From the NCBI RefSeq assembly GCF_029094545.1, contig NZ_CP117835.1, forward strand, positions 3,204,001-3,268,000: 64,000 nucleotides of DNA. The letters are read 5' to 3'. The stretch comes from Alkalihalophilus pseudofirmus. GTDB taxonomy: Bacteria > Bacillota > Bacilli > Bacillales > Bacillaceae_D. The notes below the pieces were generated by a model that saw only the letters and a program-made list of their open reading frames with translations, had not been told where the DNA came from and ran no database searches. This document shows, one piece after another, positions 41,385-43,732 of the stretch. Made by a program: the position numbers and the translations under genes. The stretch's first letter is position 1; each line of letters opens with the position of its first letter.

Positions 41385-41690
41385 ATGGACGTTGAATTTG
41401 TATACGATGAGCGTTTAAAGATTTCTCTTCCTCGATTTCATACAGCTTGGGATGAACTTGAGGAGATAAGACAAGCTCAAATTCTTCGTATGTGGGAAGA
41501 GATTCGCGGTAATATCCCAGAGCGTATTAAAGAATTAGAAGAGCTCATTAACGAAAAGAATGCTGCTTTATCAGAAGAAATGAATTTTGAACGTTCTTGT
41601 CTTCTTAATACGGAAATAGCAGAATTAGCATCCATTATTAACGATCTCTGGATATGGTTTAGATTAAATCCTTCGCTGTCTAAGGGATGA
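41385..41690 (+). CDS. Hypothetical coiled-coil protein divergent from argG
   Basis: Not recognised. 101 residues, acidic and largely helical. It starts with a short strand region (DVEFVYDERLKISLPRFHTAW) and continues as a heptad-like helix (about 40-80, ERIKELEELINEKNAAL) with W-rich ends. AGAGGGGTGATGAA precedes the ATG. It is one of few plus-strand genes in this part of the window, and shares the 249-base gap with the argG promoter. It stops before a bidirectional terminator. Confidence 0.75.
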   Translation: MDVEFVYDERLKISLPRFHTAWDELEEIRQAQILRMWEEIRGNIPERIKELEELINEKNAALSEEMNFERSCLLNTEIAELASIINDLWIWFRLNPSLSKG

Positions 41691-41761: not shown

Positions 41762-42598
41762 TTATTGGTTGCGCTCTGATAATAATCGTTTCTGATAAAA
41801 TTTATGTGATAGTTCAATCACTTGCTGCGATAATCTGTAGTTTATACCAGCGCCAAATGCCATTCCAACAAGCGGCAGCCCTTGAAACACTTTTTTTCTG
41901 AGCATTGTAATGACGAAGCTTTTCGCCATCTGACGTATAAACTGTCCCAGCCACTCAGGTTCAACAATTTCCTCTGAACCTGCATAAAAGATATCATCCG
42001 TATGGTGCTGATCTAGATCCTGCCACAGCCGCTCCCATTCATGCGCTTGAAATGCTTTTGGCAAGGTTGACAAATGCAAAAGCTTTAAAGCAATAACCAT
42101 TTCAACTGGACGTTTTAAATCGTACCCATAGATCGTCGCAATCTGTTGAATCGAACGGAGATTAATGGCTATCACTGCAGGAAGGTCAACTGCTAATAAA
42201 AACATCCCGCCCATTCCCGTTAATCCGCCTTGACCAAGCGCGAGAAGACGCTGTTTGGCCATTAATTGGTCAGTCATGTAATCGAGCTGCTCCACCGGAA
42301 GATATTGAAGGTCTTCAATGGAATCAACCGTAGGAGCAAACACTTTAGCATATTGCAGAATTCGTTTTCTAGTCTCCTCATGGGATCTGGTGTTTTGGAG
42401 ATAAGCATGCAGATGAATAAAAACGTGGTCAATCTGCAAAAGGACTTTCTGTCTTCTATGATCACCTAATTGTTCAAATAATTTATCTGTCCACTTTAGA
42501 TAGGTGTATTCTACATCAGTGGCTTCATGCGAAAAATATGTATCTTCCCATTCAATAATTGCTTGGTATCTCTTTTGATCTCTTTCTTCCTGTCTCAT
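41762..42598 (-). CDS. EcsC family protein
   Basis: 278 residues of the EcsC family, which takes its name from a protein encoded by the B. subtilis ecsABC operon; molecular function unknown. The conserved core is LALGQGGLTGMGGMFLLAVDLPAVIAINLRSI-like, split here over about 140-170, with hydrophobic stretches that could associate with membranes. ATG with AAGGTGAGCG. It follows the YhaM-like gene by 52 bases on the same strand. Confidence 0.8.
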   Translation of the reverse strand: MRQEERDQKRYQAIIEWEDTYFSHEATDVEYTYLKWTDKLFEQLGDHRRQKVLLQIDHVFIHLHAYLQNTRSHEETRKRILQYAKVFAPTVDSIEDLQYLPVEQLDYMTDQLMAKQRLLALGQGGLTGMGGMFLLAVDLPAVIAINLRSIQQIATIYGYDLKRPVEMVIALKLLHLSTLPKAFQAHEWERLWQDLDQHHTDDIFYAGSEEIVEPEWLGQFIRQMAKSFVITMLRKKVFQGLPLVGMAFGAGINYRLSQQVIELSHKFYQKRLLSERNQ

Positions 42599-42650: not shown

Positions 42651-43589
42651 TCATGAATGGTGCATCTTACGTTTAAACATTGGAGAATACACCCATTCTT
42701 CTTCACTTCGTTCACGGATCATTTCAATGGCATGAAGTTTTGTATTCATTTCTTTTATAGATGCCAGCATGATTGCTTCTGCCGTTTTTTCCGATACAGC
42801 GCTCCCATATCCTTTTTCTACATCCCCGTTCTGGCTGAGCATAAGATGTTTCAATGCAATAACTTCCACATCATCGGTCGAAATCCCTGCTTCTCTCGCT
42901 GCTTCATTAATCATTTCAATTCCAAGCACCATATGTCCCATTAATTCTCCGCTTGATGTATACTCTGGCGCTACTACATCCCGCAGCGCCTTCGTTTTTC
43001 CAATGTCCCCTAACAAGCATGCTGATAACACTAAATCTCGATTGACATAAGGATAGAGTGGCAGGAGCTGATATGCCGCTCTAGATAGCTCTACAATATG
43101 ATGCATGAGGCCAGCATAGTAGGCATGATGATATGTTTTAGAGGCAGGCAGAGTCGTTAGTTTTTCCCGAATGGTACGTTCAGAATAAACCCGACGTAAA
43201 ATATTTCGTAAAATGGGAGAAGTAACTTCCTCCATCAACATACGCAGCTCTTGCCATAACTCTTCTCTAGATATTCCTTTTCTAGAAATCAGTTCACTAA
43301 TGGATACAGGGTCGTCTGATGTTGCTAATCTAACTCTTAATAGCTTTAATAACTTCTTTTGCTTAAAGGTAGTGACAATCCCTTCTCCTTTAATTAATGC
43401 TTTGGGCTGCAAGGATTCTTTTTGCTCTTTCGTAAGGTCCCATAATTGAGCAGGGATAATCTCTAAGTTACGTTCTAAAAGAAAGGTTGCATATTCACTT
43501 CCATTAGAAGCCTGTTTTAACTCTCTTTCACGAATTAAAAAGAAGTTTGTAAACTTCTCTCCTTCATTTGCTTTTGAAAACAATCCCAC
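42651..43589 (-). CDS. YhaM-like OB-HD protein lacking catalytic residues
   Basis: 312 residues, the length of YhaM 3'-5' exoribonucleases (about 314). N-terminal OB-like domain (about 10-90, LIKGEGIVTTFKQKKLL) and C-terminal HD-type domain (about 150-300). The first HD histidine (GLMHHIVEL) and LGHMVLG remain, but the central HD is GD (LLGDIGK), the later histidine pair is QN (LSQNGD), and the acidic residue of IDNxD-type is replaced (SIKEMN). It is therefore probably catalytically inactive. The GTG start at 43589 has AAAGGAGGTTTATGAT, better than upstream ATGs. It is next to ackA. Confidence 0.8.
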   Translation of the reverse strand: MGLFSKANEGEKFTNFFLIRERELKQASNGSEYATFLLERNLEIIPAQLWDLTKEQKESLQPKALIKGEGIVTTFKQKKLLKLLRVRLATSDDPVSISELISRKGISREELWQELRMLMEEVTSPILRNILRRVYSERTIREKLTTLPASKTYHHAYYAGLMHHIVELSRAAYQLLPLYPYVNRDLVLSACLLGDIGKTKALRDVVAPEYTSSGELMGHMVLGIEMINEAAREAGISTDDVEVIALKHLMLSQNGDVEKGYGSAVSEKTAEAIMLASIKEMNTKLHAIEMIRERSEEEWVYSPMFKRKMHHS

Positions 43590-43693
43590 ATCATAAACCT
43601 CCTTTATGGGTGTTGCTTTATATATACCCCTTTTAAGATCTCTTACTATCATAGTCTTTTTTTGATTTAGATGTAAACAACGTGAAGATGTAT

Positions 43694-43732
43694 TTAAAAA
43701 GAGCATCACTTACATGATTGTAAGTGATGCTC
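43694..43732 (-). terminator. Terminator of ackA
   Basis: GAGCATCACTTAC/GTAAGTGATGCTC 13-bp stem, 6-base loop, TTTTT tail, 13 bases after the ackA stop. Confidence 0.95.

Follow-up and report, generated by a model that had tools for sequence, protein, structure and literature searches.

The window, a stretch of 64,000 nucleotides from the 4.24 Mb genome of Alkalihalophilus pseudofirmus, codes for a protein related to the exoribonuclease YhaM whose metal site has been dismantled. We consider it fairly likely that this protein is a maintained pseudo-exoribonuclease which still binds RNA without trimming it. It belongs to a second YhaM lineage, here named YhaM-P, whose members grade from intact through partly broken to dead. 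The gene and its surroundings comprise the following features.

42651..43589, minus strand: yhaM-P gene, coding for a dead YhaM-type protein of 312 aa, with GTG start, stop codon included
43598..43605, minus strand: ribosome binding site AAAGGAGG, strong, 8 nt before the GTG
43648..43677, minus strand: promoter-like site TTTACA-18-TATGAT with 10 of 12 consensus letters, the best of the scan
43701..43732, minus strand: terminator-like stem-loop from a motif scan, at the end of ackA and before yhaM-P
41762..42598, minus strand: EcsC-family gene downstream of yhaM-P (Pfam EcsC, E 2.5e-62)
43314..43562, minus strand: OB-fold half, residues 10-92, the presumed RNA-binding part (AF2 model m7032443c4975)
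42717..43154, minus strand: HD-type half, residues 146-291, with dismantled metal site
43005..43010, minus strand: HD motif changed to GD (G194-D195), from the YhaM alignment
42828..42833, minus strand: HH motif changed to QN (Q253-N254), from the YhaM alignment
42753..42755, minus strand: last presumed ligand Asp changed to Lys (K279), from the YhaM alignment

The reading frame is also open further upstream of the GTG (352 aa in total). As the promoter-like match lies inside this extension, and the terminator-like stem of ackA overlaps its start, the GTG at 43589 is the sensible start. Neither promoter-like sites (11 against a mean of 13.1 in shuffled sequences) nor terminator-like sites (2 against a mean of 2.4) are in excess, and the site at 43648..43677 is thus weak evidence. 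In the window, yhaM-P and the EcsC-family gene are separated by about 50 nt without a terminator-like site between them, and the two genes are perhaps co-transcribed. Between the EcsC-family gene and argG lies a conserved gene of about 100 aa (41385..41690, plus strand), which is mostly found on the opposite strand. It has no convincing Pfam match (best E 0.041), and 19 relatives across the regions compared fall into its cluster, itself counted.

Fold and active site of the window protein

The earlier note had called the protein YhaM-like over its full length, and this holds. With HMMER (phmmer), the window protein matches the YhaM chains 9o7t (E 3.2e-39) and 9h3f (E 5.8e-36), and the matches to these two solved sequences span residues 7-296 and 9-295. 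The PDB table gives molecule names only for both entries; we take 9h3f to be YhaM from B. subtilis and 9o7t to be that from S. aureus. No paper on either was found among the matches listed in the open-licence literature. The AF2 model (pLDDT 82.5) predicts an OB fold followed by an HD fold, as in YhaM. VIA-align superimposes its HD half on 9h3f with a Z of 26.1 and an rmsd of 2.0 over 197 residues at 28% identity, and its OB half matches OB folds with Z values of 10.6-12.6, mostly over model residues 2-102. Pfam OB is found in 17 of 29 YhaM-P members (E <= 0.01) and not in the window protein, which scores 21.2 bits for Pfam HD, just below the cut-off of 22.

The score for the YhaM equivalog model NCBIfam NF010007 (177.9 bits, E 2.4e-52) is below the cut-off of 460. 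The same applies to three YhaM-P proteins with intact sites (L070, L067 and L132, with 254, 231 and 246 bits), and thus a low score marks the lineage and not the death of the enzyme. Low-confidence loops in the AF2 model (residues 152-156 and 258-261) were considered as a mark of the dead protein and were discarded, as the intact L070 has low confidence at 147-156 and 256-259.

Seven positions (H164, H194, D195, H219, H253, H254 and D279, forming the site H, HD, H, HH, D) are presumed metal ligands; apart from the HD pair, we assume these roles from HD-GYP-type enzymes. The HD pair has been put to the test in S. aureus YhaM as H192 and D193 (PMC11347170). The window protein retains H164, D195 and H219, and four of the seven ligands are gone, namely by the changes from HD to GD, from HH to QN and from the final Asp to Lys that had been noticed before and that are real in the alignment to YhaM. 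In addition, a conserved Asp near K279 is replaced by N282, and the conserved H154, H155 and H248 are still present. Sequencing errors can be ruled out because the same QN and K occur in A. pseudofirmus OF4 and A. marmarensis, relatives with 99-100% identity, and in L022 from a diverged species of the window genus (78% identity). Judged by its residues, the window protein is a homologue of an active enzyme family from which the catalytic residues have gone, and its status as a pseudoenzyme is well supported.

A second YhaM lineage with graded loss of ligands

A search for an intact yhaM elsewhere in the genome, as suggested in the earlier note, was successful. At G000:C1:747387-748229 a canonical gene codes for a protein with all seven residues, which scores 557.5 bits in NF010007, above the cut-off, and is 29% identical to the window protein. 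By its sequence, the cell thus has an ordinary YhaM besides YhaM-P. A second EcsC-family match (G000:C1:760554-761072) lies about 12 kb from the canonical gene; that both YhaM types are near an EcsC relative may be due to chance.

Phylogenetic analysis was performed without the active-site columns on 57 rows, including 8 of the 18 rows from family f68 and 7 canonical ones. Six duplicates or near-duplicates (L003, L004, L020, L045, L047, L049) and L005-L019 had been dropped from an earlier tree, and pieces under 200 aa from genomes G011 and G036 were dropped from alignments and trees. YhaM-P forms a clade with support 100/100 apart from canonical YhaM. Within it, the family of the window (f1) is a clade (100/99), and f68 (100/96) is placed outside the Bacillales-side members (95/95). 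By sequence, YhaM-P is a separate old lineage, and the window gene did not arise by recent duplication of the canonical yhaM in its genome.

Among 41 genomes of f1, 35 have a YhaM-P gene, which is one open frame in 33 of them, the window copy included. The six genomes without it are five of genus g2 and G031. In G011 (C136:56317-57233) and G036 (C25:41554-42427) the gene is split over frames, which may be a draft error or true decay. A canonical YhaM match accompanies it in each of the 35 genomes; in G036, which is incomplete, this match is partial. One f1 genome has a third YhaM-type copy (L057, G038:C7:134958-135800) with an intact site, which sits on a long branch among the canonical ones.

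A search of 397 genomes of the order detected YhaM-P in 25 (E <= 1e-70), from families f1, f5, f25, f28, f35, f42 and f45. It occurs in four of seven genomes each of f28 and f5, and two of the three f28 genomes without it are only 62 and 80% complete. Order-search matches at about 149-172 bits, represented by 20 fetched regions (L085-L104), are YhaM proteins with intact sites that fall on the canonical side of the tree. A search of the class (398 genomes) gave 36 matches at E <= 1e-55, of which 34 belong to f68, a family of another order that is probably, by our guess, Paenibacillaceae. In all nine f68 genomes tested, a canonical YhaM query (E <= 1e-10) finds only YhaM-P, which therefore is able to work by itself there. 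Fifteen deltaproteobacterial matches, the L005-L019 omitted from the trees, have intact sites.

All seven ligands are kept in f68 (18 of 18 loci), f28 (4 of 4) and the one locus of f45. Six of seven are kept in the single loci of f42 and f35, four in the two loci of f25, and three to five in the four loci of f5. In f1, no member has more than five and 7 of 33 members retain a single one. Both His of the HH motif are lost in all unbroken copies of f1: position 253 is Gln in 33 of 33 and position 254 is never His (0 of 33). K279 occurs in 31 of 33, with Asn and Asp once each, both in genus g6, which is the first branch of f1 in the tree; N282 is found in 32 of 33. The other ligands are lost less regularly, H194 in 15 of 33 (the window genus among these), H164 in 13 and H219 in 11.

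Among the other YhaM rows, canonical and extra copies together, 50 of 51 have all seven ligands. The exception is L160, one of four further, far-diverged YhaM-like copies in f28 genomes (L157, L159, L160 and L161). Its HH motif begins with Ser instead of His, which may be the onset of a further loss.

In f42 only H254 is lost, whereas f5 has lost 253 and 279 and keeps H254 in two of four loci. These different lesions argue for separate losses without proving them. In the best tree, the intact f28 stands beside the broken f25 (90/77), and parsimony on the intact or lost state gives at least 2 changes. The AU test does not reject a tree that unites every broken row in one clade (p = 0.155; p = 0.16 when f35, whose single row L079 is a long branch of unsure placement, is left out).

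Gene neighbourhood and selection

As noted earlier, yhaM-P adjoins ackA. The order ackA - yhaM-P - EcsC, on one strand, is found in 31 of 31 regions compared (the window, L004, L105-L130 and L052-L054) from seven families. In the same 31 regions ackA is preceded on the same strand by a ytxK-like gene. An argG relative is present in 27. A location so constant in seven families speaks for vertical inheritance within the order. If gene ends are set by the longest open frames, the EcsC gene overlaps yhaM-P or follows it within 60 nt in 25 of the 31 regions. In the f42, f45 and three f5 regions the two are separated by another gene or by a fragment of it, and in one f1 region (L053) the gap is 585 nt. 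The intervening gene codes for 805-817 aa in two f5 regions (L127:5804-8254, L122:5414-7828) and in the f42 region, with shorter pieces in the f45 region and the third f5 region; its sequence is reminiscent of a Lon-type protease. In six of six f68 regions (about 5 kb on each side), tblastn with 18 window proteins (E <= 1e-3) found no relatives of the 17 proteins other than YhaM-P.

EcsC-family genes are not confined to this arrangement. They are found in 293 of the 397 genomes of the order (E <= 1e-30), compared to 25 of 397 for YhaM-P. Five g2 genomes of f1 lack both genes, and G031 lacks YhaM-P yet has a weak EcsC match. Given this much wider occurrence, EcsC is independent of YhaM-P, and the two do not form an obligate pair.

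It had also been remarked that the gene, with its intact frame and good ribosome site, looks maintained, and purifying selection bears this out. We analysed nine pairs of f1 proteins, all dead; the pair of the window and G003 has saturated dS. Among the eight pairs with measurable dS, seven near pairs have a dN/dS of 0.023-0.079 and the eighth has 0.28 at a dS of 0.016. For comparison, dN/dS is 0.062 in an intact f28 pair, whose dS of 1.6 is high, and 0.017-0.041 in three pairs of canonical YhaM; dS exceeds 1 in the f28, f5 and f25 pairs. In seven matched genomes YhaM-P diverges about twice as much as canonical YhaM (48% versus 19-24%). As YhaM-P is absent from 6 of 41 f1 genomes and split in two more, its function is dispensable.

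Residue conservation was computed on 29 of the 33 f1 rows. The OB and core positions A27, N29, W50, R87, P148, A149, H155, G160 and H248 reach a conservation of 90% or more among the dead as well as the intact members. The OB positions D40 and G43, conserved in catalytic members, are changed in the dead clade, and thus RNA contacts may differ. The dead clade has thirteen newly fixed residues. The HD half accounts for K151, Q253, K279, N282 and L285, with no His, Cys, Asp or Glu among them in the 29 rows. Before matching, the divergence of the HD half relative to the OB half seemed higher in dead sets (0.90-1.05) than in catalytic sets (0.43-0.76). This was not used as evidence for a relaxed HD half, since in column bootstraps of matched sets the intervals overlap for dead f1 (0.84-1.17) and the canonical copies of f1 (0.55-1.12), and also for f5 (0.56-1.45 for the dead and 0.50-3.05 for the canonical set).

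Proposed role of YhaM-P

We propose that YhaM-P descends from a second YhaM-type enzyme, the metal site of which is complete in other bacteria. Beside an ordinary YhaM, trimming by YhaM-P was probably redundant, and the metal ligands were lost stepwise, in f1 the HH first and the HD pair later. Selection would have continued to act on the OB half, on the HH-A-YY-AGL loop and on the tail. A protein that keeps binding and gave up cutting would then hold or shield 3' ends. The RNA held by YhaM-P would be single-stranded and would most likely consist of 3' ends like those that remain after terminators, which YhaM-P would shield or present in competition with YhaM and PNPase.

By analogy, RNA binding by a dead YhaM-P is plausible because the D193A variant of S. 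aureus YhaM, inactive under standard conditions, still binds RNA; it degrades RNA at high excess, and the H192A variant keeps some activity (PMC11347170). Loss of a single ligand therefore need not abolish activity. YhaM trims about 3 nt off 3' ends made by terminators or endonucleases (PMC7101322), it cross-links to RNA in S. pyogenes (PMC12234827), and in S. pneumoniae Cbf1/YhaM stabilises sRNAs through its nuclease activity (PMC7196914). A more far-reaching version, which we put forward as possible yet doubtful, is that the YhaM-P of alkaliphilic Bacillaceae has become a dedicated non-cutting 3'-end chaperone that caps small RNAs and the 3' ends derived from terminators. In this version the same active site would have been disarmed step by step, and repeatedly, in several families.

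The earlier note had suggested a regulator of a true YhaM. A dead subunit might insert into or cap the active YhaM hexamer and tune its activity, as RNase J2, an inactive paralogue, tunes its partner J1. This is compatible with the presence of canonical YhaM in all 35 f1 genomes with YhaM-P, and YhaM of S. aureus forms hexamers, which may be built as trimers of dimers (PMC11347170). However, the two proteins share only about 29% identity, the lineage stands without a canonical YhaM in the nine f68 genomes tested, and the S. aureus HD mutants assemble poorly (same source). Regulation through mixed oligomers is thus not favoured and seems rather unlikely. We rate it as lower still that YhaM-P has a role independent of RNA, as scaffold or partner of the neighbouring EcsC-family protein. 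The invariant gene order, the close spacing in 25 regions and the joint absence from five g2 genomes would fit. Against this stand the much wider occurrence of EcsC, its weak match in G031, and the f68 regions, where yhaM-P has none of the window neighbours that were tried.

We regard it as very unlikely that the protein has remained active as a one-metal or altered-metal hydrolase, which would employ H164, D195, H219 and other residues. These three residues do remain in the window protein, and the partial activity of H192A shows a certain tolerance (PMC11347170). But the remaining ligands vary too within f1, down to a single one in seven members, the newly fixed residues of the HD half offer no substitute His, Cys, Asp or Glu, and a Lys at the Asp site would oppose metal binding. 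Most improbable is a slow pseudogene without function which is on its way out. The absence from six f1 genomes, the two split copies and the doubled divergence would be expected of it, but it is disfavoured by the low dN/dS in seven of eight usable pairs and by full frames in 33 genomes. A maintained protein that binds RNA without trimming it remains our preferred reading. The initial interpretation as a dead, maintained YhaM-like protein thus stands, refined in that it represents an old separate lineage with a graded loss common to the whole family.

Pseudoenzymes among RNases are known as a kind. RNase J2, with J1, is likewise a dead or weak RNase paralogue kept with an active one in Firmicutes; it has another fold and acts in complex with J1. 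With the 3'-5' exoribonuclease YhaM/Cbf1, the window protein shares length, OB and HD fold, the conserved HH before the HD half, and the core; it differs by the four missing ligands, the score below the equivalog cut-off, and its other lineage and location. The f68 protein belongs to the same YhaM-P lineage (about 40% identity), but has all seven ligands, stands as the sole YhaM in the nine genomes tested, and has another neighbourhood. S. pneumoniae Cbf1/YhaM is of the same family and has the RNA-protective effect that is proposed here for YhaM-P; there, protection results from nuclease trimming (PMC7196914).

According to a YhaM survey from 2024, all its homologues have invariant HD catalytic sites, and B. 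halodurans is named among species with two paralogues (PMC11347170). Among the matches listed in the open-licence literature, no description of a dead YhaM paralogue or lineage was found. The whole selected YhaM-P lineage breaks the rule of an invariant HD site, and its intact, half-broken and dead relatives occur in the same gene order. As a warning for annotation, similarity would readily give the name YhaM to a protein which, in these genomes, is probably incapable of trimming RNA. YhaM-P provides a natural series in which to study the role left to an exoribonuclease once it is unable to cut.
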